From Herbaspirillum sp. LeCh32-8 (lineage in GTDB: Bacteria; Pseudomonadota; Gammaproteobacteria; Burkholderiales; Burkholderiaceae_D), in NCBI RefSeq assembly GCF_017814915.1, contig NZ_JAGIPZ010000002.1, forward strand, positions 465,084 to 529,083: 64,000 nucleotides of DNA. Direction: 5' to 3'. This document shows, piece by piece, positions 1,779-16,984 of the stretch. The notes beneath the pieces are model-generated. The model saw only the letters and a program-made list of their open reading frames with translations. It did not search any database and had not been told where the DNA came from. Each line of letters begins with the position of its first letter. Position 1 is the stretch's first letter. Made by a program: the position numbers and the translations under genes.

Positions 1779-1808
1779 TCCACTTATCGCATTGCGGAGG
1801 TTTGCATC

Positions 1809-4682
1809 ATGAATCAGCTTAACGAAACCGATTACGGCACCCCGGCGCGGGTGTCCGAACAGGAAGTCACGCTGGAGATCGACGGCGTATCGATCACGGT
1901 GCCGGCCGGCACCTCGGTCATGCGCGCCTCGGTCGAGGCCGGCATCAACGTGCCCAAACTGTGCGCCACCGACAGCCTGGAGCCGTTCGGCTCCTGCCGC
2001 CTGTGCCTGGTGGAGATCGAGAAGGACGGCCGCAAGATGAAGGGCTATCCGGCCTCCTGCACCACGCCTTGCGAGCCGGGCATGAAGGTCAGCACCCAGA
2101 CGCCCAAGCTGGCCGAGATCCGCCGCGGCGTGATGGAGCTCTACATCTCCGACCATCCGCTGGATTGCCTGACCTGCCCCACCAACGGCAACTGCGAGCT
2201 GCAGGACATGGCCGGCGCCGTCGGCCTGCGCGAGGTACGTTACGGCTACGAGGGCGAGAATCACCTGGAGATGAAGAAGGACGAATCCAACCCGTACTTC
2301 ACCTACGATCCGTCCAAGTGCATCGTCTGCAACCGCTGCGTGCGCGCCTGCGAAGAGACGCAGGGCACCTTCGCGCTGACCATCAACGGCCGCGGCTTCG
2401 AGTCGCGCGTGTCGGCCGGGCAGATGGACAGTTTCATGGAGTCCGAGTGCGTCTCCTGCGGCGCCTGCGTGGAGGCCTGCCCGACCGCCACGCTCACCGA
2501 GAAGAGCGTGATCATGATGGGCCAGGCCAAGCAGAGCGCGGTCACCACCTGCGCCTACTGCGGCGTGGGCTGCTCGTTCAAGGCCGAGATGAAGGGCAAC
2601 GAGGTAGTGCGCATGGTGCCGTACAAGGACGGCCAGGCCAACCACGGCCACTCCTGCGTGAAGGGACGCTTCGCCTGGGGTTACGCAACCCACAAGGATC
2701 GCATCCTCAACCCGATGATCCGCAAGAGCATCAATGACCCGTGGCAAGAGGTGTCGTGGGAGGAAGCGCTGGCGTATGCGGCCAGCGAGTTCCGCCGCAT
2801 CCAGGCCAAGCACGGCAAGGATTCCATCGGCGGCATCACGTCCTCGCGTTGCACCAACGAAGAAACCTACCTGGTGCAAAAGCTGGTGCGCGCCGCCTTC
2901 GGCAACAACAACGTCGACACCTGCGCGCGGGTATGCCACTCGCCCACCGGTTACGGCCTGAAGCAGACGCTGGGCGAGTCGGCCGGCACCCAGACCTTCG
3001 ACTCGGTGATGAAGTCGGACGTCATCATGATCATGGGCGCCAACCCGGCCTCCGGCCACCCGGTGTTTGCCTCGCAGATCAAGCGCCGCGTGCGCCAGGG
3101 CGCCAAGCTGATCGTGATCGACCCGCGCTCGACCGAGATGGTGAAGTCGCCCCATGTGCAGGCCGACTACCACCTGAAGCTGCGCCCCGGCACCAACACC
3201 GCCATCATTACCGCGCTGGCGCATGCCATCCTCTCCGAGGGGCTGCAGCAGGAGGATTACATCCAGGAGCGCTGCGACGTGAAGTCCTACGAGGACTGGA
3301 AGGCCTTCGTGCTGCGCCCGGACAATTCGCCCGAAGCCATGGCTGAAGTCACCGGCGTGCCGGCCGAGGCGATCCGCGGCGCCGCGCGGCTGTTCGCCAC
3401 CGGCGGCAACGCGGCCATCTATTACGGCCTGGGCGTGACCGAGCATGCACAGGGCTCGACCACCGTGATCGGCATCGCCAACCTGGCCATGTGCACCGGC
3501 AACGTCGGCCGTGAAGGCGTGGGCGTGAACCCGCTGCGCGGCCAGAACAATGTGCAGGGTTCGTGCGACATGGGTTCCTTCCCGCATGAGCTGCCGGGTT
3601 ACCGCCACATCTCGGACTCCACCGTGCGCGGCCAGTTCGAGCAAGCCTGGGGCGTGACGCTGAACCCTGAGCCGGGCCTGCGCATTCCCAACATGTTCGA
3701 CGCCGCGCTGGAGGGCAGCTTCAAGGGCCTGTACTGCGAGGGCGAGGACATCGTGCAGTCCGACCCCAACACCCAGCACGTGGCCGCCGCGCTGCAGTCG
3801 ATGGAATGCATCGTGGTGCAGGACCTGTTCCTGAACGAAACGGCCAAGTACGCCCACGTGTTCCTGCCGGGTTCTTCCTTCCTGGAAAAGGACGGCACCT
3901 TCACCAACGCCGAGCGCCGCATCTCGCGCGTGCGCAAGGTGATGCCGGCCAAGGCCGGCAAGTCGGACTGGGAAGTTACGGTGGCGCTGGCCGAAGCGCT
4001 GGGTTACCCGATGCCGTACAATCATCCCTCGGAAATCATGGATGAAATCGCCGCGCTGACGCCAAGTTTCCACGGGGTCAGCTACGCCAAGCTGGAGAAG
4101 CTGGGCAGCATCCAATGGCCGTGCAACGACGCCGCGCCGAAAGGCACGCCGATCATGCACATCGGCAGCTTCATCCGCGGCAAGGGCAAGTTCCTCAACA
4201 CGCAATACTTCGCCACCGACGAGAAGGTGACGCAGCGCTATCCGCTGATCCTGACCACTGGTCGCATCCTGTCGCAGTACAACGTCGGCGCGCAGACGCG
4301 CCGCACCGAGAACTCGCAGTGGCATAGCGAGGACGTGCTGGAAATCCACCCGCACGACGCCGAGGATCGCGGCATTCGCGAAGGCGACTGGGTCGGCATC
4401 GAGTCGCGCGCGGGCCAAACCGTGCTGCGCGCGACCGTGAGCGAGAAGGTGCAGCCGGGCGTGGTGTACACCACCTTCCACTTCCCGGAGTCGGGCGCCA
4501 ACGTGATCACCACCGACAACTCGGACTGGGCCACCAATTGCCCCGAGTACAAGGTGACGGCGGTGCAGGTGCTGCCGGTGACGCAACCGTCGGAATGGCA
4601 GCGCCACTACCAGCGCTTCAACCGCGAGCAGCTGGATTTGTTGAAGGGGGAGAAGGCGGCGGAGCCGTTGGTGACGAAGTGA
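1809..4682 (+). CDS. fdsA: NAD-dependent formate dehydrogenase alpha (catalytic) subunit
   Basis: This 957-residue molybdenum/bis-MGD enzyme oxidises formate to CO2. In order it has an N-terminal NuoG-like [2Fe-2S] ferredoxin domain (Cys from about residue 51), a GNCELQ His/Cys cluster region near 127-130, two ferredoxin motifs (CIVCNRCVRAC and CVSCGACVEAC), then the molybdopterin oxidoreductase domain starting with a CAYCGVGC [4Fe-4S] motif near 248. The molybdenum ligand is Cys376, followed by His377 (ARVCHSPT), so this is a cysteine enzyme and not a selenocysteine enzyme. A strong GGAGG lies 8 bases before the ATG. The gap to fdsB is 30 bp. Confidence 0.97.
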   Translation: MNQLNETDYGTPARVSEQEVTLEIDGVSITVPAGTSVMRASVEAGINVPKLCATDSLEPFGSCRLCLVEIEKDGRKMKGYPASCTTPCEPGMKVSTQTPKLAEIRRGVMELYISDHPLDCLTCPTNGNCELQDMAGAVGLREVRYGYEGENHLEMKKDESNPYFTYDPSKCIVCNRCVRACEETQGTFALTINGRGFESRVSAGQMDSFMESECVSCGACVEACPTATLTEKSVIMMGQAKQSAVTTCAYCGVGCSFKAEMKGNEVVRMVPYKDGQANHGHSCVKGRFAWGYATHKDRILNPMIRKSINDPWQEVSWEEALAYAASEFRRIQAKHGKDSIGGITSSRCTNEETYLVQKLVRAAFGNNNVDTCARVCHSPTGYGLKQTLGESAGTQTFDSVMKSDVIMIMGANPASGHPVFASQIKRRVRQGAKLIVIDPRSTEMVKSPHVQADYHLKLRPGTNTAIITALAHAILSEGLQQEDYIQERCDVKSYEDWKAFVLRPDNSPEAMAEVTGVPAEAIRGAARLFATGGNAAIYYGLGVTEHAQGSTTVIGIANLAMCTGNVGREGVGVNPLRGQNNVQGSCDMGSFPHELPGYRHISDSTVRGQFEQAWGVTLNPEPGLRIPNMFDAALEGSFKGLYCEGEDIVQSDPNTQHVAAALQSMECIVVQDLFLNETAKYAHVFLPGSSFLEKDGTFTNAERRISRVRKVMPAKAGKSDWEVTVALAEALGYPMPYNHPSEIMDEIAALTPSFHGVSYAKLEKLGSIQWPCNDAAPKGTPIMHIGSFIRGKGKFLNTQYFATDEKVTQRYPLILTTGRILSQYNVGAQTRRTENSQWHSEDVLEIHPHDAEDRGIREGDWVGIESRAGQTVLRATVSEKVQPGVVYTTFHFPESGANVITTDNSDWATNCPEYKVTAVQVLPVTQPSEWQRHYQRFNREQLDLLKGEKAAEPLVTK

Positions 4683-4751
4683 CAGGCTGATGCGGTAGTG
4701 ACGCGCCCCGCAGTATTGGTACTGTGCTCACATCCCGCTGCTGTCGACATA

Positions 4752-4853
4752 TCACCCGTCATCCCGGCGCAGGCCGGGATCCAGCGTCGTTCAACGGCCG
4801 TTGAATCACAGCGAACGCCACTGGGTTGCGGCCTTCGCCGCAACGACAGGGTT
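4752..4853. repeat. inverted pair of a dispersed REP-like repeat, copy 1
   Basis: The gap between fdsA and fdhD holds two roughly 35-base units facing each other. The left unit contains CCCGGCGCAGGCCGGGATCC followed by CAGCGTCGTT. The right unit, read on the minus strand, contains GTTGCGGCGAAGGCCGCAAC followed by CCAGTGGCGTT. Similar paired units occur at 38839-38950 and 51926-52038. Each unit is itself a small hairpin. The element interrupts the fds operon and could act as an mRNA processing or partial termination structure; that role is inference. Confidence 0.75.
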
Positions 4854-4926
4854 ATACGGATCGGCCGCGATTTATCCGCATTATTTGTCAGCATCGTTAC
4901 ATCATTGAACAGAACCGCAGGAAGGC

Positions 4927-5772
4927 ATGAACGCACGCACCACCCCAAGCCCGAACATCGACGAAACCACCGGCGACTACGCCACCTCCGCTCGCGTCCA
5001 GGTAGACCGCTGGCGCGACGGCAAGCGTGAGACGGTGGACGACGTCGTCGCCGAGGAAGTGCCGATCGCGCTGGAATACAACGGCATCTCGCACGCCGTG
5101 ATGATGGCCACGCCGGCCGACCTGGAAGACTTCGCGCTCGGCTTCTCGCTGACCGAAGGCATCGTCGCCGATCCGAGCGAGTTGTATGAATGTGAAGTGG
5201 TGAGCGGCTGTGAAGGCGTGCAGGTGCAGATGCGCATCGCCACCGAACGCTTCGTGGCCTTGAAGGAAAAACGCCGCAACCTGACGGGCCGCACCGGCTG
5301 CGGCCTGTGCGGCGCCGAGACGCTGGAACAGGCGGTGCGTCATCCCAAGGCGGTGGCCGCCGGCGGCGCCGGCTTCACCATCACGCAGATTCACGCCGCG
5401 CTGGAAGCAATGCAAGGCGGCCAGCAACTGCAGCAACTCACCGGCGCCACCCACGCCGCGGCCTGGCTGGGCACCGACGGCAAGATTGCCCTGGTGCGCG
5501 AGGACGTCGGCCGCCACAACGCGCTGGACAAGCTAATCGGCGCGCTGGCCGAGGACGGAGCCGACTTTTCGCAGGGCGCGGCGATCATCACCAGCCGCGC
5601 CAGCTACGAGATGGTGCAAAAGGCGGCAACGGTGGGCATCGGCTTCATCGCCGCCATCTCGGCACCGACCGCGTTGGCGATCAGGCTGGCCGAAGAGACC
5701 GACGTCACGCTGCTGGGCTTCGTGCGCAAGCAGGGCCACGTGGTCTATGCAAGGCCGCACCGGTTGCGCTGA
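4927..5772 (+). CDS. fdhD: Formate dehydrogenase accessory sulfurtransferase FdhD (FdsC)
   Basis: The 281-residue protein delivers sulfur from a cysteine desulfurase to the bis-MGD cofactor, which formate dehydrogenase needs for activity. It contains the family's CxxC motif (Cys125 and Cys128 in TGCGLCGAE) and the conserved DVGRHNALDKLIG segment. AGGAAGG lies just upstream of the ATG. Its place between fdsA and fdsD matches the fdsGBACD gene order of Cupriavidus, where this gene is called fdsC. The 244-bp gap before it is longer than elsewhere in the operon and contains a repeat element. Confidence 0.95.
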   Translation: MNARTTPSPNIDETTGDYATSARVQVDRWRDGKRETVDDVVAEEVPIALEYNGISHAVMMATPADLEDFALGFSLTEGIVADPSELYECEVVSGCEGVQVQMRIATERFVALKEKRRNLTGRTGCGLCGAETLEQAVRHPKAVAAGGAGFTITQIHAALEAMQGGQQLQQLTGATHAAAWLGTDGKIALVREDVGRHNALDKLIGALAEDGADFSQGAAIITSRASYEMVQKAATVGIGFIAAISAPTALAIRLAEETDVTLLGFVRKQGHVVYARPHRLR

Positions 5773-5822
5773 ACGAGACAAAAGTCAATCAATAGATAAA
5801 ACCAGGACGCAGGAGACAGAAA

Positions 5823-6050
5823 ATGAACACCGAACACCTGATCAAGATGGCCAACCAGATCGGCAGCTTCTTCTCCACCATGCCCGACCACGAGCAGGCG
5901 GTGGCCGATTTGGCCTCGCACCTCAAGCGCTTCTGGGAGCCGCGCATGCGCAAGGCTTTCGTGGCGCATATTGAACAGACGCAGGGAGAAGGGCTGGATC
6001 CTATCGTGCTGGAGGCGGTGAGCAAGCATCTGCAGAAATTGGAAGCCTAG
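5823..6050 (+). CDS. fdsD: NAD-dependent formate dehydrogenase delta subunit
   Basis: This is a 75-residue acidic and helical protein beginning MNTEHLIKMANQIGSFF, typical of the small FdsD subunit that ends fds operons. Its exact role is poorly defined; it has been linked to assembly or stability of the complex. An AGGAG lies 7-8 bases before the ATG. The 50-bp gap to fdhD supports cotranscription. It is the last gene of the operon and converges with the minus-strand gene ending at 6086. Confidence 0.92.
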   Translation: MNTEHLIKMANQIGSFFSTMPDHEQAVADLASHLKRFWEPRMRKAFVAHIEQTQGEGLDPIVLEAVSKHLQKLEA

Positions 6051-6085: not shown

Positions 6086-6586
6086 CTAGCGTTGCGGCGT
6101 GTCAGGAAACATCGTCGCGGGGGCTGCGCAGCCATAGGCTCTGATGCGGTTAAGCAGTTGATTAACTGGCTCCCGCTTCAAGATATCGGTGCGCAGCACG
6201 GAAGCCGACAGACCTGAATTTCTTAACTCTTGCGTCAAGCCGTAGAAATCCGCGGGTGATAACTGACGTATCCCACATGCGGCATAAAGGCGTGCTTCGG
6301 GTGATGCTGTGGGGGAGCTCAATATCCTCGTCAATGTTGCCAAGGCACCATCCGATTGCATGATGGCCCGGTAACGTACTTCCCCCTCACTGATGTGAGC
6401 GACGAAACCTACCTGTCCAAGGGCGAAGACGTTGGTCTTCTCAAAGACTGTTATCTCGCTGGCAGGGATTTCACCAGCTTGCGCCAGCAATGCTGGATAA
6501 GCGAAGGCCGCAATCATGAGGCATTTTCTATATGAGAAGCGCCTCAATGCTTCATTGATCAATCGGTTCATGGGTTTTCGGTTCAT
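6086..6586 (-). CDS. MchS3-like small secreted protein of the microcin locus
   Basis: The 166-residue protein has a hydrophobic N-terminal segment (about 20-37, ending LLAQAGE) that looks like a signal peptide or membrane anchor. It is followed by a compact domain with the pattern GEVRYRAIMQS...ARLYAACGIRQLSPADF. That pattern resembles a small family I recall as MchS3, found in microcin gene clusters; the match is from memory and needs a profile search. It is the last gene of the island, 9 bp after the exporter gene. A second in-frame ATG at 6571 is possible, and neither start has a strong ribosome site. The function is unknown; a role in export, maturation or self-protection is inference. 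Confidence 0.6.
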   Translation of the reverse strand: MNRKPMNRLINEALRRFSYRKCLMIAAFAYPALLAQAGEIPASEITVFEKTNVFALGQVGFVAHISEGEVRYRAIMQSDGALATLTRILSSPTASPEARLYAACGIRQLSPADFYGLTQELRNSGLSASVLRTDILKREPVNQLLNRIRAYGCAAPATMFPDTPQR

Positions 6587-6595
6587 GGTTTTTTC

Positions 6596-8704
6596 TTAAG
6601 CCGAGATGCGCCGGGCATCACGATTGATTTCCTCCAGTCTGCCGTTTTGGATTGACACTACACGTTCAGCAGCGGCAATGGTCTCGGGCCGGTGGGCGAT
6701 CACAATTCTTGTCGTTCGCATCTGCGCCAGGGCCGCATTAACTCGCCGTTCGTTATCCACGTCCAGATGGCTGGTGGCTTCATCCAGCGCCAGAATCCGA
6801 GGTTGTTTGTACAGGGCTCGCGCGAGGAGAATTCTCTGTTTTTGCCCGCCGGACAATGTGCTTCCCATGTCTCCCACCAACGTTTGATATCCCATCGGCA
6901 TGGCCGCAATTTCGTCGTGAATTGCCGCCAGGGTTGCGCATTGCTGGACGCGCTGCGTGTCGAGCGGGGACGAGAAAAATGCGATGTTGTCCAGGATTGA
7001 GCCCGCCAGCAAGGTGTCGTCCTGCATGACTGTGCCGATCAATTTCCTGTAGTGCTGAAGGCCGATGTGGCGAATGGGAATTCCGTCGATATAAATTTCA
7101 CCTTCGGTTGGAACGATCAAGCCCAGGATAATTTTGCAGAGTGTGCTCTTTCCAGAGCCGCTTGGGCCAGTGATGGCCAGCGATTGTCCCGCCGGAATCT
7201 CCAGGCTGACGCCATCCACGATCCAGGGTTCGCCCTCTGCGTAGCGAAAGCGAATGTTGCGCAGGGTAATGTCACCTTTCAGTCTGTCGATATCCGATTC
7301 AATTGCGGCGCTTTCTTCCACTGGTTCCATGACGATGTCGGCCAGTCTTTCTGCATGCATGTTCAGCATTTTCAGATTGATCGCCAAATCGACAAGGGTG
7401 AACATGCGGCTGGAGAACGTTGATGCATAGCTGCTGAAGGCCATCAACATGCCGACCGTCAGGGTGTTCTGCATGATCAGTCCGGCCCCCAGATAAAACA
7501 GCGCCAGGCCTTGTGCACCGAAGATCGCAGTATTGGAAAGTTTGAACAGGATGCCCAGTTTTTGGGTTCGCACATCTCGATTGAGGACATCCTGTTTCAG
7601 GTTCTGCCAGCGGGCGCAGCGTTCCGCCTCGCGTCCAAAGAGCTTGACGGGAATGGAGGCACGTACGCTCTCAAGGAAATACGTATTTTCCTTGGCGGCC
7701 AGTAGCAGCCGCTCCTGGGAGGCTTCGCGAAACGGGCCGTAGAAGAAACTTCGTAGCAGAACGTACGCCAGCACGGCGATCAAGACGACAACGCTTAGTT
7801 TCGGGCTATAGAGCAACATCATGCCCAGCGCCAGCAGTGCCATCAGGCCATCCAGTGCGCTTTCGGCAAACAAGCTGGTTAACGTGGATTGGATGGTGCC
7901 GATGCTGCCGAAGCGGGAGACGATGTCGCCGATATGCCGCTTCTGAAAATACACCGCAGGCAACCGGCACAGATGTGCGAACACCCTGGTGCTCCATTGA
8001 AAGCTGATATCCATGCTCCAGCGCATTAGGAGCCAGCTTCTTCCCAATCCGATAATCGTCTGGATAACCAGCATCAGGCCGAAGCCAATCACCAGGACCG
8101 AGAGCAGGTCACGATCGCCGCTGACGATGACTTCGTCGATGACGAATTGATTGAACAAAGGCGCGCACACAGCGATTGCCTCTAATCCAAGCGCCAGGAC
8201 AATGGCCTGAACGGCAGCAGTGCGCAGGCCGGAGATGCGGCCAGTCAACTGCTTGATGGAAAGCTGCTTGCGTTCGTCGCCAGGTATGAATTCCGCCGTA
8301 GGCGTCAGTTCAAGGGCCACACCGGTGAAATTGCCCGAAATGGCCTGTAGGGGTAATGTGACTTCTCCCAGTGACGGATTGAGAATGGTGACGCGTTGCT
8401 GGCCCAACAGGTTCCTGTACACCCTTTTCATCACTACAAAGTGATTCAAGTTCCAGTGCAGGATGCACGGCGTTTTCAGGTGGCCAAGCGTTTCCAGTTC
8501 CACGCGCAGCGGTCGCGCCGCCAGATGCAGACTTGAGGCGCAGCGCATCAACTGCGCAAGGGTGGCGCCATTAGCGCTGACCAGGAAGCGCCGTCGCAGA
8601 TCGGCCAGGTCGAGATGATGACCATGGTAGCTGGCGACCATGGCCAGGCAGGCCAGGCCGCACTCGCTGGTTTCGGTTTGTCGTATGAAACGCATCAGGC
8701 TCAC
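6596..8704 (-). CDS. Peptidase C39-containing ABC exporter (microcin/bacteriocin processing transporter)
   Basis: The 702-residue CvaB-type inner membrane exporter should cut a double-glycine leader and export the peptide with an HlyD adaptor and TolC. The N-terminal C39 domain has Cys15 (TSECGLACL) and His88 (LNHFVV). The third triad position, normally Asp in a DPA/DPS context, is Asn109 here (ILNPSLG). About six membrane helices span roughly 160-440. The ATPase domain shows Walker A GPSGSGKST (513-521), signature LSGGQ (617-621) and Walker B ILALDE (637-642). It overlaps the upstream DUF3857 gene by 4 bp. A single such gene beside a leader peptide gene supports bacteriocin export over a general type I substrate. 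Confidence 0.93.
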   Translation of the reverse strand: MSLMRFIRQTETSECGLACLAMVASYHGHHLDLADLRRRFLVSANGATLAQLMRCASSLHLAARPLRVELETLGHLKTPCILHWNLNHFVVMKRVYRNLLGQQRVTILNPSLGEVTLPLQAISGNFTGVALELTPTAEFIPGDERKQLSIKQLTGRISGLRTAAVQAIVLALGLEAIAVCAPLFNQFVIDEVIVSGDRDLLSVLVIGFGLMLVIQTIIGLGRSWLLMRWSMDISFQWSTRVFAHLCRLPAVYFQKRHIGDIVSRFGSIGTIQSTLTSLFAESALDGLMALLALGMMLLYSPKLSVVVLIAVLAYVLLRSFFYGPFREASQERLLLAAKENTYFLESVRASIPVKLFGREAERCARWQNLKQDVLNRDVRTQKLGILFKLSNTAIFGAQGLALFYLGAGLIMQNTLTVGMLMAFSSYASTFSSRMFTLVDLAINLKMLNMHAERLADIVMEPVEESAAIESDIDRLKGDITLRNIRFRYAEGEPWIVDGVSLEIPAGQSLAITGPSGSGKSTLCKIILGLIVPTEGEIYIDGIPIRHIGLQHYRKLIGTVMQDDTLLAGSILDNIAFFSSPLDTQRVQQCATLAAIHDEIAAMPMGYQTLVGDMGSTLSGGQKQRILLARALYKQPRILALDEATSHLDVDNERRVNAALAQMRTTRIVIAHRPETIAAAERVVSIQNGRLEEINRDARRISA

Positions 8705-10551
8705 TTGAACAGGATGGCTGACTGATGGTCCTTGAGAATCGCTTCGGCGACGGGCATCCAGGATCGGAGTTGTGCCGGCGTGCAGACATGTGAAGCCAGC
8801 GGGCGATCCAGCACGCGTCGTACGATGACGGTGTTTCCTTCACGGTGGTAGCTTGCAAGATAACTCACGCCGCCGCTGTGCACATTCACATCCGGCGGCA
8901 GCGTCTGGACTCGCATACTCTTGGGGAAGGTCAACCGATAATCGAGTTCGACAGTCTTCCCCGGGCATATCGCATCCAGCTGCCGCTGCTGTCGTGCCTG
9001 CACGTTGCGTGCATAGACGGTCATGTCATTGGCTCTGGGCAGACGAGGGATGTTCAGGAACTTTCCTTTGACATTGGTAAGGTGCTCCAGACTTCCCTTC
9101 CATCGTACAGTGTAGGGGGACTTCAGCGGGCTGGCGGGATCATCCTCGACGGAGAGCTTGCCGTTCATTTTGCTTGCTTCCAGTAACGACTTTTCCCTTT
9201 CGCCGGTACTTTGCGTGGCGACGGCAATCCGGTACTTTGCGGACTCATAGCCGGCCATTTCCTTGCTTGCATTCACTGTTGCATTGCCTTTCCCGTCAAA
9301 GGCAACGTCCGCGCGAAAATGAGCGAAGGTATTGGACGATGAATGCGGCGGCGTCTTTTTGACTTCTCCTGTCTGGGTCAGCAGGGTAGGCTTGTCGCCC
9401 AGCGAGAAGGGGAGCTCTCCGAATGCGGCGTACTTGTTGGTGGCATCAACGAAGAGATCGAATTCAGGCAAATGCGTGATGATGTGATTGAACAGCGTAT
9501 TGCTGAGCGCAACATTAGGCATGCGATACGCCTCTCCCGCGTTGATCAGCGCTGGGGACGATTTGATACCTTTCGCGCGCAGCAACGCGGCCAGCAAGGT
9601 TACGTGATCTTTGCAGTCTCCATATAGGTTCGCCAAAATGACTGGCGCTTCATGTGGAACCACCGGGCCGGCGCCAAAATAGATCGCCACGTAGCGCAGA
9701 TTCAGATTGACCCAGTTGTACAGCAAGCGGGCTTGTTCCCGGCGATCATTGACACCTTGTGTAATCTTGTCAGCCAGTTCCTGGATGGCGGGCGTCACCG
9801 TCGCCTTGTCTGCTGCACGTGATTGATACTGCGCGGCGAATTCAGCCCAGTTGGAGAATGTGCTGACCACCAGCCTGGGGCCGGTGTCCAGTATCGAAGT
9901 CTCGCGGATTTCCTCTGGCTTCTCAGTCCATGGCGATGTATAGCGCCATTCATATTGTTTCCAGCCACCACTGTCGACGAGCTTGGCCGGTTCGATATCG
10001 ACCTGCTCCAGATTCAGTTTCAGATTGGCTGGCGCACGCAGGCTGATACGAGCATCTCCATATTGGAGCTCTTGCGGGAACACCGTCGTGAAACTGAAGG
10101 AGCCGGGAAACATCGATTCCTTCTCATGCAGGGAGTAACGCAACCGGATGCTGTCGCCAACCTCCAGTGCAGGGAAGACGACACTCTTGACGTACATCTG
10201 GCTGTACATCGGAGCTTGCATGGTTACGGGAAGTGGCTGGTCAAACACGCCCTTGTCTTTGTCAACGTCAATGATGCGACCATCCGCCTTGATGGTCTGA
10301 GCAGCATGTACCTCGACTTCGTTCATGCCCTTGATGTATGGCACAGGTATTTGACCGGATTGCTGAACACCTCTGATGGTATTGAGCTTGATGACCATGT
10401 CGATGGTCTGGTCTACATGACGTTGATCGTCTAGCTGGATCTGGTTGTCCAGTTTGGTGATGGTGTAATCGTAGGGCGCTGCCAGAGAGAGTTGTGCGCA
10501 GGTGAAAAGCGCCAGGGCGGCGCAGGATTTAATCAGGGGATGTGTGTACAT
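8701..10551 (-). CDS. DUF3857 / transglutaminase-like periplasmic protein
   Basis: The 616-residue protein has a signal peptide (about 1-25, ending LSLAAP), an N-terminal DUF3857-type beta domain (about 30-230) and a transglutaminase-like cysteine protease fold (about 260-380). The probable catalytic residues are Cys313 (YGDCKDH), His356 (FNHIITHL) and Asp369 (LFVDAT). Its gene overlaps the exporter gene by 4 bp, so the two are expected to be made together. DUF3857/transglutaminase proteins are widespread and mostly uncharacterised; one inside a microcin-type cluster could process, crosslink or protect against the peptide, which is inference. No strong ribosome site precedes the ATG. Confidence 0.88.
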   Translation of the reverse strand: MYTHPLIKSCAALALFTCAQLSLAAPYDYTITKLDNQIQLDDQRHVDQTIDMVIKLNTIRGVQQSGQIPVPYIKGMNEVEVHAAQTIKADGRIIDVDKDKGVFDQPLPVTMQAPMYSQMYVKSVVFPALEVGDSIRLRYSLHEKESMFPGSFSFTTVFPQELQYGDARISLRAPANLKLNLEQVDIEPAKLVDSGGWKQYEWRYTSPWTEKPEEIRETSILDTGPRLVVSTFSNWAEFAAQYQSRAADKATVTPAIQELADKITQGVNDRREQARLLYNWVNLNLRYVAIYFGAGPVVPHEAPVILANLYGDCKDHVTLLAALLRAKGIKSSPALINAGEAYRMPNVALSNTLFNHIITHLPEFDLFVDATNKYAAFGELPFSLGDKPTLLTQTGEVKKTPPHSSSNTFAHFRADVAFDGKGNATVNASKEMAGYESAKYRIAVATQSTGEREKSLLEASKMNGKLSVEDDPASPLKSPYTVRWKGSLEHLTNVKGKFLNIPRLPRANDMTVYARNVQARQQRQLDAICPGKTVELDYRLTFPKSMRVQTLPPDVNVHSGGVSYLASYHREGNTVIVRRVLDRPLASHVCTPAQLRSWMPVAEAILKDHQSAILFK

Positions 10552-10893
10552 AGCCGATCGTGGGGAGTGATAGTCGATGGCTGGCTATGGGCTGGCGTCG
10601 GTTGTGAAGGGAGGAGAGTGTGCCGTTCAGGACTAGGACTTGGCTGCGCTTATCGTTCTCTCGTATTTAAAATCGGCCTTACTTTCTTATTCGATAAAGT
10701 AGAAGCTGATTCTACAAAGCGTATAAGTTACGCAAAGAAAGGTAATCAGCTGAAAAAGGTGCTTCGGCATACACCGAGTAATTGTCTCTCCTTTTTCCGA
10801 TTGCACGAACAGATAGGCTAGAGACGCACAAAATGGAAGCGTCTTCATGTAAAGGAAAAATTGATCCACCTTAATTTCAATTCTGGTAAGAAG
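10552..10893. other. AT-rich gap between precursor gene and export genes
   Basis: There is no convincing gene here. On the minus strand the first bases after the precursor gene hold a small hairpin (GACGC/GCGTC arms near 10820-10842) and a second (GTAGAA/TTCTAC near 10696-10712) followed by TTTAT. Either could be a weak terminator or processing site that lets precursor mRNA outnumber exporter mRNA. A 27-codon frame with an AGGAG 17 bases before its ATG is too poorly placed to call. Confidence 0.4.
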
Positions 10894-11310
10894 TTATTTC
10901 TTTTGCTGAGAGCCACTCGTTTGGGTACTTGACTCAAAGTGATCGTATACGGCCACAATTGACGCTCCTATCGCTACCGCAGCGACACCTACTGCTCCTC
11001 CTAGGGCACCCCCTATAGCGATGGCGTCTCCAGCACCGACCATAGCAGCTCCTCCTGCTACCGAGCTTAACAAACCTGCTGTTCCTCCAGCGGCAGCACC
11101 CATGGTAAGTCCCTCTCCATATGATGCACCTTGCTCAACATTGGCTGTAACAGTTATCGTTGGCAGTGGCGTGTCTTGTGTGGGAACGTCATCCCCATCT
11201 TCGTCATATCCTCCGCCAACAAATGCCAGTTCCTCCTGGGTCAGTTCACGATATCCCCAGTACTGAGAGGCGATGTTTTCCTGCTTGGAATGTTGATTGA
11301 AGAATTTCAT
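10894..11310 (-). CDS. Double-glycine leader microcin-type precursor peptide
   Basis: This 138-residue peptide has the marks of a class II microcin precursor. The start is the ATG at 11310 because AAGGAG lies about 5 bases before it; the upstream in-frame ATG at 11328 lies before the ribosome site. The leader ends RELTQEELAFVGGG, matching the ELxxxELxxVxGG rule (Leu23, Glu27, Leu28, Val31), so cleavage is expected after Gly34. The predicted mature peptide has 104 residues: an acidic, Pro-rich head (YDEDGDDVPTQDTPLP), a TITVTANV segment, then a Gly/Ala-rich hydrophobic stretch (about 66-120) like that of colicin V, and a polar tail ending SGSQQKK. The mature part has no cysteine. Confidence 0.88.
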   Translation of the reverse strand: MKFFNQHSKQENIASQYWGYRELTQEELAFVGGGYDEDGDDVPTQDTPLPTITVTANVEQGASYGEGLTMGAAAGGTAGLLSSVAGGAAMVGAGDAIAIGGALGGAVGVAAVAIGASIVAVYDHFESSTQTSGSQQKK

Positions 11311-11373
11311 AGTTGCTCCTTTTTGCAAATAAAGATGAGGACGACAAGTGTTTGGTTGTACGGTGTATCGCTG

Positions 11374-12033
11374 TTACATTCCGCCATAGAACTCTTCATC
11401 ATCCGTTTCTGCGCTCGCCAATTTTGTTTTGAACATCAGCGTCACCCGGATGGCGGGGCAAATACGACTAACCCCGCGCGCAGCGTGAAGAACCCTGTTG
11501 TCGAAAATGGCGACGCGCCCCGACTTTGGCAGAACCGCTTGGATAATGTCGCTCTCTTCATTGAAGAACACGGTCTCTCCCGCCCATTCAGGTTTCCAAA
11601 TCGGGTTGAGATAAAGGATTGCGGTGAAATTGCCTGGTCGTCTTGAATCCACGTGCGGATAACCCTCTACTCCGTAGCTGTGTGCATTGGCATAGCAGCG
11701 GACCAGATGGTGATTACGCAGAAATGAATTCTTTAGTTTTTTCCAAACCATATTGACTGGGGAGAGCGAAGGGTCTTGGGCCAGCAGAGATGATTGATCA
11801 TCCTGATTGCTCTTGTGGGTCTTGAGGATGTCATGATTCCAATGTCCGAATACCATCTTGTCGCTGGCAGATTTCCAGCCATATTTCCAGAAAACATGTT
11901 CTTGGAAGTATTCCTGTAATGCTCCCAACTCAGTGTCGGTGAGTAGATTGTCTATTCGCACAAAGCTGCCATCGAAATTTTGTATGGGAGTATCTGCTGG
12001 CGGTTGAGCAACGCACGGATCATCGATAAGCAT
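11374..12033 (-). CDS. 2-oxoglutarate/Fe(II)-dependent oxygenase
   Basis: The 219-residue protein has a prolyl-4-hydroxylase-like C-terminal fold. The iron ligands are visible as His127-x-Asp129 (GYPHVDSRR) and His183 (VLHAARG), with Arg196 (IRVTLMF) placed to bind 2-oxoglutarate. The first 110 residues are less typical. The gene is 63 bp upstream of the precursor gene on the same strand, and its ATG lies inside the end of a 47-codon ORF, which suggests coupling. Hydroxylation of the precursor, whose mature head is rich in Asp and Pro, is the obvious hypothesis but is inference. There is no signal peptide, so it should act in the cytoplasm before export. Confidence 0.9.
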   Translation of the reverse strand: MLIDDPCVAQPPADTPIQNFDGSFVRIDNLLTDTELGALQEYFQEHVFWKYGWKSASDKMVFGHWNHDILKTHKSNQDDQSSLLAQDPSLSPVNMVWKKLKNSFLRNHHLVRCYANAHSYGVEGYPHVDSRRPGNFTAILYLNPIWKPEWAGETVFFNEESDIIQAVLPKSGRVAIFDNRVLHAARGVSRICPAIRVTLMFKTKLASAETDDEEFYGGM

Positions 12034-12163
12034 GTTTAATCTCCTTTAACTCTGCGTTGCAGAGCAGGTTGAATTTTTTTTCCGCAATAGAGGTTCCGAT
12101 GCCATTGCAGCAGCTTACTTTTCCTGATGCGGTTCTAATTTTTAGAAGTGTCCGATCTTCCAT
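12020..12163 (-). CDS. Small 47-residue ORF overlapping the oxygenase gene
   Basis: This short frame begins MEDRTLLKIRTASGKVSCCN and ends EIKHAYR. A GGAG sits 7 bases before its ATG, a better site than most starts in this island, and its TGA lies 14 bases inside the oxygenase gene, a layout typical of translational coupling. It has three Cys (18, 19, 35) and no membrane segment or double-glycine leader. I do not recognise it. It may be a real small protein (second peptide, chaperone or partner of the oxygenase) or simply a translated leader that opens the oxygenase start. Confidence 0.5.
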   Translation of the reverse strand: MEDRTLLKIRTASGKVSCCNGIGTSIAEKKFNLLCNAELKEIKHAYR

Positions 12164-12208
12164 GGGTGTTCTCCAGTTCGTCCGTTGAGTAATAAAAAGC
12201 TGCTTTCT

Positions 12209-12550
12209 TTATTTAACTTTTGCGCTGCCGAGGTTTAACGATAGAGATGTCGGAAGTACATATTCAAGATGAATTTCTTTTCCCGTCAGGCGTAAAGAGG
12301 CCGAAATGAAACCAATTAGAACGGGTATGAGTGCCATCGTTACGTGAAACCATGTTGAAGATGAATTGAAAACGGGGCGACGCGTCTTTCCCCATATGGA
12401 AACGACAGGAAATCCGAGGGCGAGAGCGAAAAAAGAGTATTTGCAATAGGTAAGGAATGCTGAATTCAGGAACGCATAAAAGAAGAGCAGTAAAAGGGCG
12501 AATCCAATGGATTGCGTGAAGATGTATATCGAGAGATAGTTTTTTTTCAT
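12209..12550 (-). CDS. Small integral membrane protein, putative immunity protein
   Basis: From the ATG at 12550 the product is 113 residues with three or four hydrophobic segments (about 6-30, 35-52 and 66-88) separated by a basic WGKTRRP loop. Such size and topology are typical of microcin immunity proteins, which are poorly conserved in sequence. The frame is open far upstream, but that part overlaps the preceding membrane-protein gene in another frame. No strong ribosome site is seen, so expression may depend on coupling to the upstream gene 38 bp away. It is not obviously related to the two paralogues upstream. Function is inferred only from context. Confidence 0.65.
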   Translation of the reverse strand: MKKNYLSIYIFTQSIGFALLLLFFYAFLNSAFLTYCKYSFFALALGFPVVSIWGKTRRPVFNSSSTWFHVTMALIPVLIGFISASLRLTGKEIHLEYVLPTSLSLNLGSAKVK

Positions 12551-12588
12551 GCGCCAAGATTGATCAATAACTGTGATGGGTGGTGAAC

Positions 12589-12888
12589 TTAAGGCGATTG
12601 TCGATCGGGCGCCGTATGTTGCGCGATGAAGTACACAACTGCGCCGACAAAAATCGGCGCTATTGCCAGAGATAGCGCTCGCCAAGCCACGTTTGGATCT
12701 TGTCTGAACGCGCCATAAAGAACAGTAAAGAAAAGATGGGGGGCGAACAGAAGCGCCGTTACGATCAAGAGGAAATGCCGATGCCTCTTCAGGCACCAAG
12801 GCATCCATCCGCCAGTAAATGCTCCTAGGAGATAGGCATTTAAATAAGCAAAAGAGTGTTCCAGGTAGAAGTTCTCAATCCAATGCAT
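12589..12888 (-). CDS. Small membrane protein, paralogue B of the microcin island
   Basis: The 99-residue protein begins MHWIENFYLEHSFAYLN. The ATG at 12888 is preferred to the one at 12906 because AAGGA lies 7 bases before it. Three hydrophobic segments are visible, and the sequence aligns by eye over its whole length with the protein at 12991-13284: both start with a FYxxH motif, have a basic loop (CLKRHRH here, WLRAYRR there) and end with an AxxPxxxGAxx segment. A tandem duplication of a putative immunity or accessory membrane protein is the simplest reading. The function is not known. Confidence 0.7.
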   Translation of the reverse strand: MHWIENFYLEHSFAYLNAYLLGAFTGGWMPWCLKRHRHFLLIVTALLFAPHLFFTVLYGAFRQDPNVAWRALSLAIAPIFVGAVVYFIAQHTAPDRQSP

Positions 12889-12990
12889 TTGGCGTTCCTT
12901 TGTCATGCCTCTTTTTCAGCGGCAATGTAGCGATATGGTTCTAAGTGGCGAATCTATGTGTGAGTACTCCTTGGTTGATTTTTGAAAGGG

Positions 12991-13284
12991 CTAGGCAGGT
13001 ATTGGGCGACCACTTCTTCCTGCAAATAGCAAAGCGCCAGCGACGTAGGGAAAGAGCGCGAATGCTATGGAGAGCGAGAGTTTGTATTCACTCTGGATGT
13101 GAAGAAAAGTCGAGAGAAATATGTGGATCGAGAGAAGCGGAGCCAAGATGACTAATTCCCTGCGATATGCCCGTAACCATGTATGCAGAAATGAGCCGCA
13201 CAGCAGGTTGGCAAAGAGATAGCCAACCAGGAAGTTAAAGAGAAAGAGATTGTGCTTCGCATAGAAGGTGGTAATGGATTGCAT
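12991..13284 (-). CDS. Small membrane protein, paralogue A of the microcin island
   Basis: The 97-residue protein begins MQSITTFYAKHNLFLFN. A GGAGG lies 12 bases before the ATG at 13284; the TTG directly before it (13287) is closer to ideal spacing and may be the true start. Three hydrophobic segments (about 12-32, 43-62 and 69-88) flank a basic WLRAYRREL loop. It is a paralogue of the next gene downstream. It follows the adaptor gene by under 30 bp, so it is probably in the same transcript. Candidate functions are immunity or an export accessory role; both are inference. Confidence 0.68.
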   Translation of the reverse strand: MQSITTFYAKHNLFLFNFLVGYLFANLLCGSFLHTWLRAYRRELVILAPLLSIHIFLSTFLHIQSEYKLSLSIAFALFPYVAGALLFAGRSGRPIPA

Positions 13285-13314
13285 CAATTTGGTTTTCCTC
13301 CGTTATTGAGTGAA

Positions 13315-14583
13315 CTATTCGGTTCGAGCGACCGCGAGCAGCGGCTCCGCCACCCACTCCCAAATCGCACGTCGGTCTTGCTTCACATCAGCGCTCAAGG
13401 TCATGCCTGCTTTCAGCTGTTTGGGTTGGCCGTAGGCATCGATAGCCTGCCGATTGAGCCGAACCTTGATGCGATAGAGCGCCTCCGTCGGTGCGGCAGA
13501 GGCCGTTGCGACAAGCTGCTGTGATTGCCCGATGATTGTGCTGGCCAGATTTGCCGGGAGCTCGCTGGGGGCAAATGGTGTCCGGCTTACATCAACGACG
13601 GTCCCTTGCTGTAATCCAAATTTCTGATACGGGTAGGCGTCATAACGGATGGCCACTTTTTGCCCTGCGTCGACAAACCCTGCGGTGCGGCTGGTGGCAT
13701 ACAAGTGAGCTTCCAGCGTGGGTGAAGCGGCTGGCCGATCTCCGGCATGCAGCGGGATGAGCGTTGCCAGCATTTGTCCCGGCGCTACGGTTTGTCCGCT
13801 CTGGTAGGAAATGGCGGTGATGGTCCCCGCTTGTGGGGCGGTGATCAGGGTGGAGTGTCGGCTGTGGTTCTCGGCGCTTTCTTGCCGAAGGCTGGCCAGT
13901 GAGCGTTCGATTTGGGCGAGATCGGTAGCCAGCTCTGTTTCGGTTGAGGCCAGTTCTGATTTCAGTGCAATGCGGTTCGCGGACAATTGGACCTTGCTGC
14001 GTTCCAGCGCATTGAGCTTACCTGTGACGTCGAGCAGATCTTCTTGCTTCTGTTGAAGTTGGGCATGTGACACGTAGCCGCTTTGCTGCAGCACTTCATA
14101 TTTCGATAAGGTTTGGCGTGCCAGTTCTTCGCGGCGTCTTGCGAGGGCGATCTCTTGCTCTAGTTTGTCAGTCTCCGCCCCCAGGTTTTGCTGGCGCTCC
14201 CGTATGTTCTGGGTCTTGTCGCGATACTGGCTCTGGCGGAGTCGTCGCTCCGATTCCAGTGATGCCTGTCGCGTGGCAAGTTGCTGGGCAATCAATTCGC
14301 TTAGTTCGCCCTCTTTACCCTGTCGCTCAGTGGCCAGTTCGAACAGCGGCTCCTCTGCCGCGACGGCGTCGCCCTCACGGACATATATCCGTTTCAATAC
14401 ACCAGCAGTGGCTGCTGCGACGGTGGCACTGCCATCTATAGGAACAATGACGCCGGCAATGTGCGCCTTTCTCGTGACGGAGCCGCAAGCGACAAACATC
14501 CCGATTGTGGCAACGGCGACCAATGACGCGGCCACGATAAGCCAGCCTGCCAATGGGCGTGCAAGCCGTATCGAACCGGCCAT
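13315..14583 (-). CDS. HlyD/CvaA-type secretion adaptor (membrane fusion protein)
   Basis: From the first ATG the product is 422 residues: one membrane helix (about 13-33), a biotinyl-lipoyl half near 45-70, a long coiled coil (about 80-210), and a second lipoyl and beta-barrel region (about 235-415). It should link the ABC exporter to a TolC-type outer membrane channel encoded elsewhere. The family's conserved N-terminus (LFRxEAL) is absent from this ORF but is encoded in frame directly upstream (LPLFRAEALSAHTDG, about 14584-14628). The true start is therefore probably upstream, with no ATG, GTG or TTG available before the stop at 14668-14670; ATA at 14661 would give about 448 residues. Confidence 0.88.
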   Translation of the reverse strand: MAGSIRLARPLAGWLIVAASLVAVATIGMFVACGSVTRKAHIAGVIVPIDGSATVAAATAGVLKRIYVREGDAVAAEEPLFELATERQGKEGELSELIAQQLATRQASLESERRLRQSQYRDKTQNIRERQQNLGAETDKLEQEIALARRREELARQTLSKYEVLQQSGYVSHAQLQQKQEDLLDVTGKLNALERSKVQLSANRIALKSELASTETELATDLAQIERSLASLRQESAENHSRHSTLITAPQAGTITAISYQSGQTVAPGQMLATLIPLHAGDRPAASPTLEAHLYATSRTAGFVDAGQKVAIRYDAYPYQKFGLQQGTVVDVSRTPFAPSELPANLASTIIGQSQQLVATASAAPTEALYRIKVRLNRQAIDAYGQPKQLKAGMTLSADVKQDRRAIWEWVAEPLLAVARTE

Positions 14584-14860
14584 ACCATCGGTGTGGGCAG
14601 ATAGTGCCTCCGCCCGAAAGAGCGGAAGCCTGGAGGATGTGTCTGGAGAAGTGATTTTTATCGGCTCTCAAGCAGGGCGCTTGGCTGACTGGCCGAAAAA
14701 AGTGGCGGGCTGGCGGCGTAAAAATAGATGCCGCGCACAATGCCATAAGACGCACCGAATGAGGTCGATATTGCTCTGTATACGCTAAGAAATGCTCCGC
14801 CCTTCGAAGTATGTCGAGAAGATGTTCTTCGGGGAGAGCAGAGCCATTCTTTTCACTATT

Positions 14861-16984
14861 TTAGTAGCGATACCCCAACGTCAGCATGACGGTACGATCG
14901 TCCCCCAGCGCCACGGCGCGTGCGAGGCCGCCGCTGTAGTACTGGGTGTTGAAGATGTTCTTCACGTTCAGCGCCGCGCGCCAGCGATCGGCGTTGTAGG
15001 CCACGCCGGCGTCAGCCAGCACGTAGCCGGGCAGGGTGTAGCCGTTGGTGCGCTGCATGCTCTGGCCGTGCACGCCGCCGTTCAATTCCCAGCCGTTCAG
15101 TTGACCCTTGAAGCGATAGCGACCGCTGGCGTTGAAGGTATGGCGCGGGACGTTGTCCAGCCATTGGCCGTTGGTGATGGAGCTGTTGCCGAGGTTGTCC
15201 ACAGTGATGGAGGCAGTGTAGGCGTAGCCGGCGGTCAGGCTCAGGCCGTTGCTGAAGTCGCTGGTGATGCCGATTTCGCCGCCTTGCGAACGCTGGTTGC
15301 TGGCGATCTTGAAGTTAGTGTTGCTGGGATCGCTGCTGAGCACGTTATTGCGGCGCAGGTCGAACACCGCCACGTTCAGGCTGGTGCGGCCGCCGTCGAG
15401 GTCGAACTTGACGCCGGCTTCCCATTGCTTGCCGGTCTCCGGCTGGAAGGTGTTGCCGGAGATCGAGGTGCCGACGTTGGGGTTGAACGAGGTGGTGTAG
15501 CTGACATAGGGGCGCACGCCGCGCAGGATCTCGTACATGACTGCCGCCGAGCCGGTGGTGGCCGAGGCCGGCGTGTCGGTGTGCACGCGGGTCAGCAGGT
15601 TGTCGGAGTAGGTCGAGGTGATGTCATGGCGCAGGCCGGCCAGCAGCTGCCAGCGCTGGCCCAGCGAGAGCGTGTCGCGCAGGTAGAGGCCGGTGTCGCG
15701 CACCGAGGTGGAGGTCCGCGTGTTGGGCGTGGCCGGGCAGGTCACGCGCGTGTACACCGGGTTGTACAGGTTCAGCGCAGGGACCGTGCAGGTGTAGGAG
15801 ACCGCATCTTCGCGCGTGTTCATGTAGTCGGTGCCGAAGGTCAGCGCGTGCTTGCCGAAGTCGGTGTCGAAGGTCTTCTGCAGGTTGGTGTCCATGACGA
15901 AGGTCTGGCCCGAGAAGGTCTGGTCGGTGGCGGTCCGGGTTTCGGTGGCGCCGGTCGCGGTGGAGACGTTGTTGGCCACCAGCTGGCCGCTCATGTTGAA
16001 CTGTTGCCAGCGCAGGTTGTGGTTCAGGGTCCAGCCGTCGTCAAATCGGTGCACCAAGGCATAGCCCAGGCGCGTCTCGGTGGCGTTGTAGGGACGCGCG
16101 CCGGTTTCGCCGGTGAACAGCGAGCGCGGCAAGCTGCCGTTGCGGTTGCTGTAGATCGAACCGTACAGCGGCAGCCCCTGCTGGCGCACGTAGCCGCGTT
16201 CCTGGAAGCTGGTGAGGATGGTGAAGTCGGTGCGTGGGCCCAGGTCCAGCGACAGCGAGGGCGCGATGTAGCGGTTCTTGAACCAGACGTGGTCGGTCGC
16301 GTCGTTGCTGTTGGAAATCAGGCCGTTGATGCGGAAGGCCTGCTTGCCGTTTTCCGACAGCGACTTGTTCAGGTCGAGCGTGGCCTGGCGGAAGTCGTGG
16401 CTGCCCACGGTCACGTCGGCGTTGGCGAAGCTCTCGGCCTGCGGGCGCTTGCTGACCATGTTGACCAGGCCGCCCGGCAATACCTGTCCGTATAGCAGCG
16501 AGCCGGGACCTTTCAACACTTCCAGTTGCTCCAGCCCGAAGATCTGCTCGGCCACGCGGCTGGAGGTGGTGGTGCGCAGACCGTCGAGGTAGAGCGAGTC
16601 CGAGGCTACCTGGCCGCGGATGATGAAGTCATCCCAGCCGCGCCGGCCGTACTGGCCCGAGACCACGCCGGGCACGTTCTTCAACGCATCGGCGACGCTC
16701 ACGGCTTGCTGGCTGTCCAGCATGGCGCGGGTGACGACGGTGATCGACTGCGGCGTTTCCGACAGGGGCTTGTCCGATTTGTTGACCTGCGCGCGCTTGG
16801 CCTTGAAGCCGGCCGGCGCGTCGCCTTCGGCGGTCACGTTGACCGTGGGAAGCTGGGTTGCTGCGGATGGACTGTTGTCGGCGGTCGCTGCAGTTGTATC
16901 GGCAGCGCTGGTCTGGGCTGCGGCAAGCAGCGGCGGAAATGCGAGCAATACGGCGAGCGTAGTGCGGGTGAGCAAGAAGGGCAT
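14861..16984 (-). CDS. TonB-dependent siderophore receptor
   Basis: The 707-residue outer membrane receptor has a signal peptide (about 1-24, ending LLAAAQT), a TonB-box-like LPTVNVTAEG segment, a plug domain (LSETPQSITVVTRAML, then VPGVVSGQYGRRGWDDFIIRG) and a 22-strand barrel ending in the terminal aromatic motif LTLGYRY. This architecture is that of FhuA/FpvA-type ferric hydroxamate or mixed siderophore receptors; the exact ligand cannot be told. A Fur-box-like site lies just before the ATG, fitting iron repression. It follows no other iron gene and may or may not be related to the microcin island that begins 190-280 bp downstream. Confidence 0.93.
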   Translation of the reverse strand: MPFLLTRTTLAVLLAFPPLLAAAQTSAADTTAATADNSPSAATQLPTVNVTAEGDAPAGFKAKRAQVNKSDKPLSETPQSITVVTRAMLDSQQAVSVADALKNVPGVVSGQYGRRGWDDFIIRGQVASDSLYLDGLRTTTSSRVAEQIFGLEQLEVLKGPGSLLYGQVLPGGLVNMVSKRPQAESFANADVTVGSHDFRQATLDLNKSLSENGKQAFRINGLISNSNDATDHVWFKNRYIAPSLSLDLGPRTDFTILTSFQERGYVRQQGLPLYGSIYSNRNGSLPRSLFTGETGARPYNATETRLGYALVHRFDDGWTLNHNLRWQQFNMSGQLVANNVSTATGATETRTATDQTFSGQTFVMDTNLQKTFDTDFGKHALTFGTDYMNTREDAVSYTCTVPALNLYNPVYTRVTCPATPNTRTSTSVRDTGLYLRDTLSLGQRWQLLAGLRHDITSTYSDNLLTRVHTDTPASATTGSAAVMYEILRGVRPYVSYTTSFNPNVGTSISGNTFQPETGKQWEAGVKFDLDGGRTSLNVAVFDLRRNNVLSSDPSNTNFKIASNQRSQGGEIGITSDFSNGLSLTAGYAYTASITVDNLGNSSITNGQWLDNVPRHTFNASGRYRFKGQLNGWELNGGVHGQSMQRTNGYTLPGYVLADAGVAYNADRWRAALNVKNIFNTQYYSGGLARAVALGDDRTVMLTLGYRY

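Follow-up and report, generated by a model that had tools for sequence, protein, structure and literature searches.

A double-glycine precursor with a C39 exporter is the standard microcin set, and the established microcins have been described from Enterobacteriaceae (PMC10233263). Class II microcin candidates from Pantoea, Erwinia and Xanthomonas are the object of a screen published in 2026 (PMC13174018), so the search for microcins already extends beyond gut bacteria. The gene mchS3 is named as the immunity gene of microcin I47 (PMC6795089, PMC7472721), and microcin S has McsI, a member of the CAAX protease family, as its immunity factor (PMC6795089), which provides a precedent for immunity of a proteolytic type. 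Group B colicins carry TonB-box motifs near the N-terminus (PMC8469651, PMC10906532, PMC11658791), such as E2TLTV6 of ColM and residues 17-21 of ColD (PMC8469651, PMC10906532); microcin V (MccV) is reported to be without a TonB box (PMC12511343). The subject of this report is a block of genes in a 64,000-nucleotide stretch of Herbaspirillum sp. LeCh32-8, the window (contig NZ_JAGIPZ010000002.1, positions 465,084 to 529,083, from an assembly of 5.03 Mb in 43 contigs). The block is best interpreted as a microcin island of class II type that has additional genes for tailoring and protection, and the adjoining gene encodes a TonB-dependent receptor through which the microcin may enter its targets.

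The island occupies positions 6086-14583 of the minus strand. Sequence and family searches give good support for its class II microcin core, which consists of the 138-amino-acid precursor (10894-11310; PF10439 Bacteriocin_IIc 19.5 bits, below the cut-off of 27.1), a C39-peptidase ATP-binding cassette (ABC) exporter of the PCAT type (6596-8704; PF03412 Peptidase_C39 106.5, PF00664 ABC_membrane 125.9 and PF00005 ABC_tran 114.5 bits, all above cut-off) and an HlyD/CvaA-type periplasmic adaptor (13315-14583; TIGR01843 type_I_hlyD 121.7 bits, below the NCBIfam cut-off of 208.65). The same strand encodes an MchS3-family protein with a hydrophobic N-terminal segment (6086-6586; NF041432 102.7 bits, just above the curated cut-off of 100), a DUF3857/transglutaminase-like protein predicted to be a cysteine hydrolase (8701-10551; PF12969 DUF3857 102.2 and PF01841 Transglut_core 35.5 bits), a 2-oxoglutarate-Fe(II) (2OG-Fe(II)) oxygenase (11374-12033; PF13640 2OG-FeII_Oxy_3 38.2 bits), a 47-amino-acid open reading frame (ORF) at 12020-12163 that has no Pfam or NCBIfam family and is possibly not a gene, and three small membrane proteins with no family above cut-off, mem1 (12209-12550), mem2 (12589-12906) and mem3 (12991-13287).

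The initial annotation had named all of these genes and had described them as one compact block of lower guanine-plus-cytosine (GC) content, and this description was borne out. The MchS3 and C39 genes are 9 bp apart, the C39 and DUF3857 genes overlap by 4 bp, and the oxygenase gene overlaps the 47-amino-acid ORF by 14 bp. The computed GC content is 0.531 at 6086-14583 versus 0.654 (1-6050) and 0.652 (14861-64000); it is lowest, 0.474, from the precursor to mem3, and the receptor gene resembles the flanks at 0.651. A block of 53% GC with 65% on both sides makes acquisition as a block credible. The annotation had stopped at the exporter adaptor, and the adjoining receptor, the orphan copies of island genes and the TonB-box-like motif discussed below are additions to it.

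Two more specific identities were rejected. An NHLP/NHLM bacteriocin was rejected on scores of 483.5 bits for TIGR03796 (cut-off 853.3) and 73.9 bits for TIGR03794 (cut-off 156.2). Class IIb siderophore-microcins have modification genes, namely glycosyltransferase and linker genes of the MchA/C/D kind; no modification gene was found among the island ORFs with Pfam and NCBIfam, and the class IIb identity was rejected for this reason. The Gly/Ser-rich C-terminal motif of that class was also not seen, by eye, in the C-terminus ESSTQTSGSQQKK. With the class II microcins MccV, MccI47 and MccH47/M the island shares the double-glycine precursor, the C39 exporter, the HlyD-type adaptor, small membrane proteins, an MchS3-family protein and a mature size within 5-10 kDa. 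It differs from them in its host, which is not one of the Enterobacteriaceae, in having an oxygenase and a DUF3857 hydrolase in the cluster, and in a TonB-box-like motif of its own.

This motif lies in the precursor. The leader ends in ...ELTQEELAFVGG(G), a double-glycine leader by sequence, and trimming behind it would leave a mature peptide of 104-105 amino acids with a computed mass of about 9.9 kDa and an isoelectric point of 4.05. An acidic N-terminal stretch, in which 6 of 34 residues are Gly or Ala, is followed by a C-terminal stretch with 46% Gly+Ala. In the mature peptide, TPLPTITVTAN resembles, by eye, TQLPTVNVTAE of the adjoining receptor. The core of this stretch, LPTITVTAN (mature residues 15-23; 11140-11166, minus strand), was scored with a matrix of 18 TonB boxes from 27 receptor N-termini of the same genus; a second matrix was built from 19 boxes of 30 loci, and near-duplicates and receptors whose box was not displayed or not placeable were excluded. 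With the same-genus matrix the score is 24.0, which was reached by none of 60,000 shuffles of the mature peptide and, when five receptor-orthologue boxes were removed from the matrix, by 2 of 60,000. Among 373 proteins of the own-genus loci (127,339 residues), 16 windows scored within 1 bit or above, all of them TonB boxes of receptor orthologues. Since some of these boxes sit in the matrix, the informative point is the absence of other hits. By this match the peptide has a putative TonB box that fits the receptor TonB boxes of the genus and lies in the N-terminal part of the mature peptide, as in TonB-box bacteriocins such as the group B colicins. Those colicins, among them colicin M and klebicin E, resemble the window's peptide in that the TonB-box-like motif lies in an N-terminal part that is presumably disordered. 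They are large multidomain proteins released by lysis, unlike the small peptide with a double-glycine leader and a C39 exporter found here.

A wider test covered 33 precursors with both matrices (66 tests of 5,000 shuffles each). Three precursors stand out, each when scored with its own group's matrix, and none of the 5,000 shuffles reaches the score: that of the window and those of loci L020 (IQRVEIVGNR) and L022 (MQTVEITGNR). At 60,000 shuffles with a uniform background, the scores of the latter two were reached 3 and 10 times.

The receptor that the microcin is proposed to use is encoded next to the island. The gene cluster lies between MchS3 at one end and, at the other, a FoxA/FhuA-like TonB-dependent siderophore receptor, the proposed entry route (14861-16984, minus strand; TIGR01783 320.5 bits, cut-off 223.5), whose relatives in the PDB are FoxA/CntO, the enantio-pyochelin receptor and FhuA. 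Within the genus, 18 of 34 genomes have a receptor orthologue of at least 62% identity, and 14 have MchS3, 13 of them with a score over the cut-off. In wider samples MchS3 was found in 7 of 195 genomes of the family, all from this genus, and in 1 of 274 class-level genomes, that of the window itself. When the surroundings of all 18 receptor loci, the window included, were inspected, MchS3 was found to adjoin the receptor in nine (the window, L174, L175, L176, L177, L178, L211, L215 and L219); another locus, L216, is interrupted by a contig end. Three of these loci also hold relatives of the small membrane proteins. In transcription order the layouts are TonB-mem3-mem1-MchS3 in L175, which keeps the window's gene order for mem3 and mem1, TonB-mem1-mem3-MchS3 in L219 and TonB-mem3-MchS3 in L215. 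Relatives of the C39 exporter, the HlyD adaptor and the precursor were not found by tblastn in these three loci, which belong to three sister species and possibly represent orphan immunity.

MchS3 and the three mem proteins stand by the precursor as candidate small inner-membrane immunity proteins. Relatives of mem1, with the family motif EY[VL]LP, occur in L125 (7151-7495), L175 and L219, those of mem3 in L175, L219 and L215, and mem2 has no relative in the fetched loci. Because relatives of mem1, mem3 and MchS3 occur beside the receptor without a microcin, the simplest reading is that all three confer immunity and that the microcin enters through the receptor. The same neighbourhood could also arise if MchS3 and the small membrane proteins were siderophore-uptake accessories and the island encoded a secreted signal or an iron-related peptide instead of a toxin. 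Besides the nine adjoining pairs, this is favoured by the distribution of the receptor orthologue, which is present in 11 of the 14 MchS3 genomes versus 7 of the 20 others (Fisher p 0.017; the species are not independent). It is opposed by the microcin cluster L125, which contains a mem1-type gene and MchS3 in a genome where the receptor orthologue lies elsewhere, by the naming of mchS3 as an immunity gene, and by the precursor and C39 exporter, which make up the standard microcin set. An uptake function of this kind is quite improbable, and the immunity reading is preferred.

Some further MchS3 genes were recorded. At L242:100-838 (genome G197) a relative in two frames lies by fdsD at a contig end, its better piece being 68% identical to the window's protein; fdsD is also the left neighbour of MchS3 in the window. 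At L241:9506-11417 (G201) MchS3 is accompanied by three small membrane-type ORFs with no exporter in 20 kb. The gene adjoining MchS3 there also adjoins, by eye, MchS3 in the microcin locus L125 of G205, and L241 is possibly a second orphan-immunity site matching the site of L125:13054-14177. The MchS3-type frame is a single ORF of 250 amino acids in L241 and is split into two ORFs in L125. Matches of MchS3 to PDB sequences were weak, the best being to designed constructs (E 0.003).

Among the 34 genomes of the genus the DUF3857 protein has one close relative, in G205 (62% identity); three further genomes match it at 21-25% over part of its length. The G205 locus, L125, has the order HlyD, mem1-type protein, double-glycine precursor, JmjC_2 enzyme, DUF3857 protein, C39 exporter, MchS3. 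Its HlyD and C39 proteins are 62% and 73% identical to those of the window, JmjC_2 and MchS3 score 106.8 and 117.7 bits, and the body of the precursor differs. A similar set is thus held together at a second site and the system recurs: DUF3857, exporter, mem1 and MchS3 stay together, and the precursor and the type of oxygenase change.

The JmjC enzyme of L125, which is related to NO66, the ribosomal protein L16 arginine hydroxylase and MINA in the PDB, is presumed to be another iron/2OG hydroxylase in the oxygenase's place. The window's oxygenase retains H127xD129, H183 and R196, matches nothing significantly among PDB sequences and is a putative hydroxylase of the precursor. A JmjC hydroxylase has been proposed to act on a ribosomal peptide in biphenomycin clusters (PMC12257519). 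These ribosomally synthesized and post-translationally modified peptides share the theme with the island and differ from it in peptide type, enzymes and leader, the window's enzyme being of the 2OG-FeII_Oxy_3 family. The oxygenase was rejected as a conserved partner, having a match in only 4 of 293 other genomes of the family. The 19-20 kb fetched around each of its two strong matches (L170, L171) shows no microcin-type exporter, although G199 has a C39-domain transporter at a distance of about 11 kb from the match, separated from it by a protein of 2,311 amino acids.

The DUF3857 protein has a signal-peptide-like start, both of its domains, and a Cys-His-Asp triad (C313, H356, D369) that is invariant in nine aligned proteins. 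Among PDB sequences, 3kd4 ('Putative protease') is the only one that it matches with an E value of 0.001 or lower. A structure prediction from a two-sequence alignment was poor (mean predicted local distance difference test score, pLDDT, 43.6) and was not used. The gene is situated between the precursor and the C39 exporter in the window, L125 and L071, and adjoins exporters in L158, L161 (opposite strand) and L204. Counted over the survey this is a minority arrangement: a C39 exporter stands by DUF3857 in 4 of 69 fetched DUF3857 regions and in 1 of 80 C39 loci. Double-length DUF3857 proteins of about 1,220 amino acids were seen in two genomes of the same family (L153, L162).

These data bear on a simpler explanation, a plain class II microcin island in which the TonB-box-like stretch is a coincidence and the oxygenase and DUF3857 genes are unrelated passengers. 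No more than three of the 33 precursors stand out in the TonB-box test, the sister locus L125 does not share the window's 2OG oxygenase, and DUF3857 is mostly found elsewhere, all of which would be expected of such an island. A coincidence is harder to reconcile with a receptor-type motif that no shuffle of 60,000 reaches and that finds no non-receptor hit in 373 proteins; passenger genes are harder to reconcile with a DUF3857 gene that shares bases with the exporter gene and is again found with exporters in the five other loci named above, and with a sister locus where a different enzyme, also presumed to be an iron/2OG hydroxylase, takes the oxygenase's position. The plain island is considered unlikely, and functional parts for the motif, the oxygenase and the hydrolase are preferred.

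The usual class II model has the peptide leave the cytosol by way of C39, adaptor and TolC. If the microcin is exported straight through in this manner, a hydrolase in the periplasm would encounter it chiefly when it comes back in, which favours immunity over maturation. The opposite assignment is that the DUF3857 protein, and other peptidase-type neighbours of such exporters, mature the peptide by a second cleavage or a cross-link. A transglutaminase-like domain with an intact triad suits this role, as does the coupling of the DUF3857 gene to the exporter gene and not to an immunity gene. The signal-peptide-like N-terminus does not, as the exporter should bypass the periplasm; nor does the variation of peptidase families from locus to locus, which is expected of peptide-specific immunity more than of action on a shared leader, and McsI is a peptidase-family immunity factor. 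Maturation is rated as somewhat unlikely. With microcin S the window would share a peptidase-family protein as candidate immunity, and five Rce1-like ORFs occur near related exporters; the window's DUF3857/transglutaminase-like hydrolase belongs to another family than McsI.

The variation among peptidase neighbours was seen in a survey of the best 80 of 283 loci encoding a C39 relative, in which the neighbours of 79 were examined (L026 was absent). The nearest exporter relatives among the named genomes are from Undibacterium, Sapientia and Massilia. Within 1.5 kb of the exporters, 72 ORFs of at least 150 amino acids were found, and 20 of them are of peptidase type by Pfam: six TraB/PrgY/GumN, five Rce1/CAAX (one of which, in L011 at 20.4 bits, falls below the Pfam cut-off of 22.4), four M16 and single members of the aspartyl protease, M61, M23, DUF3267 zincin and rhomboid families. 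The 72 ORFs used for comparison, all 5.5 kb or more from the exporter, include at least two peptidase families, counted among 25 of their 145 matching families, and are a weak control. With models built from the loci themselves, near (n=165) versus far (n=271) ORFs gave 6 vs 0 for TraB, 6 vs 1 for M16, 5 vs 0 for CAAX, 6 vs 0 for JmjC and 4 vs 2 for each of two sets labelled ClpP-like by eye, a label that no library confirmed. As the near set defined the models, these counts are informative for the bias in location alone, and the species do not count as independent. Related exporters are repeatedly accompanied by JmjC enzymes and by peptidase-type neighbours that have many different folds.

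Several of these loci have features of their own. L158 adds an N-acetylglucosamine (GlcNAc)-type glycosyltransferase, and in L053:6485-9949 the interval from HlyD to C39 encodes a radical SAM enzyme, a precursor that is short and has a double glycine, and a peptidase resembling M61. The precursors of L039, L040, L041 (two), L045, L057 and L074 end in GT[NP]Y(N)(R), mostly GTNYN. This ending is found in 7 of 8 precursors of JmjC loci, L125 being the exception, versus 0 of 25 others; the loci come from Pseudomonas, Marinobacter, Nitrincola and another gammaproteobacterium, all with a C39 exporter and JmjC_2. The ending looks like a JmjC target or a related recognition site, and these loci are possibly a family of JmjC-modified microcins. 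The precursors of L019, L021, L033 and L036 (Undibacterium/Burkholderiales) share a [PS]GxN[ST]WG stretch, and some adjoin an exported family that is ClpP-like by eye.

Taken together, the findings lean, by a modest measure, toward an acquired microcin island whose TonB-box peptide enters through the adjoining receptor, is tailored by the oxygenase and is held off from the producer by mem1, mem3, MchS3 and the DUF3857 protein. According to this proposal, the oxygenase would hydroxylate the precursor before export, and the C39 exporter would trim the 138-amino-acid precursor after the double glycine and pass it out through C39-HlyD and then presumably TolC. The mature peptide would have two parts: an acidic N-terminal one for uptake, which contains the TonB-box-like motif, and a C-terminal one rich in Gly and Ala, which probably inserts in the inner membrane of the target. 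The target would be killed. Entry into relatives would probably be by way of the FoxA/FhuA-like receptor, the peptide's TonB box being passed to TonB in the fashion of group B colicins. The producer would be protected by the small membrane proteins mem1 and mem3 and by MchS3; the exported DUF3857 cysteine hydrolase, acting in the periplasm, would most likely destroy re-entering microcin as a second layer of immunity. Confidence in the steps falls from the receptor assignment to the TonB box, to hydroxylation and finally to peptidase immunity.

A number of observations weigh against this proposal. MchS3 does not lie by the receptor in 8 of the 18 receptor loci (L210, L212, L213, L214, L217, L218, L220, L221), and it is found away from the receptor in L125, L179, L180, L240, L241 and L242 (genomes G185, with two copies, G197, G201, G205 and G212), so it may have another role. 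The motif was seen by eye before the statistical test, and the receptor boxes for the matrices were also chosen by eye. Thirty of the 33 precursors, that of the sister L125 included, do not stand out, the best of them reaching 0.0066 (L037). Across 195 genomes of the family no close homologue of the precursor was found; apart from itself there is one match, in 1 of the 194 other genomes, of 20.8 bits inside an open frame of 942 amino acids, and the motif is consequently not checkable by conservation. No Fur box was matched in the window at three or fewer mismatches. The absence of a C39 exporter from 65 of 69 DUF3857 regions, 9 of the 69 being shorter than 15 kb, indicates that the usual role of the family is something else, and straight-through export, used above to argue against maturation, is itself an assumption. 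The initial annotation had treated the oxygenase as a fixed part of the set, and had held that rare co-occurrence of the oxygenase, DUF3857 and exporter genes in related genomes, or a precursor gene lacking homologues, would count against a single system. Judged by this rule its view is weakened for the oxygenase, which is rarely shared and is replaced by JmjC in L125, and for the precursor, but not for DUF3857 and the exporter, which do occur together in the sister locus and others.

Other details of the island are minor. A GTG-initiated ORF of 60 amino acids between the precursor and DUF3857 (10687-10869) has membrane-like segments and no family match and is probably not a gene. Upstream of its first ATG (14583-14640), where no standard start codon is in frame, the HlyD adaptor continues, by eye, to resemble that of L125; its cytoplasmic tail may have been lost or may begin in an unusual way. 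Promoter and terminator patterns (5 and 13 found, 6.6 and 11.7 expected) were not informative. The simple gene caller overlooks small island genes, and the neighbourhood lists may be incomplete. In the open-licence literature, searches for DUF3857 with bacteriocin, JmjC with microcin or bacteriocin, and a Massilia C39 microcin gave no description of the arrangement.

The locus may, tentatively, stand for a type of microcin that combines a lineage-matched TonB box, a swappable iron/2OG hydroxylase, membrane immunity with a swappable exported peptidase, and orphan immunity genes beside the exploited receptor. If this is true, orphan immunity genes next to a receptor would allow the receptor of a microcin to be read from genomes alone. 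The recurrence of unrelated peptidase families by the exporters suggests that proteolytic self-protection may be a wider feature of these systems, and the oxygenases in such loci suggest that hydroxylated microcins may exist.

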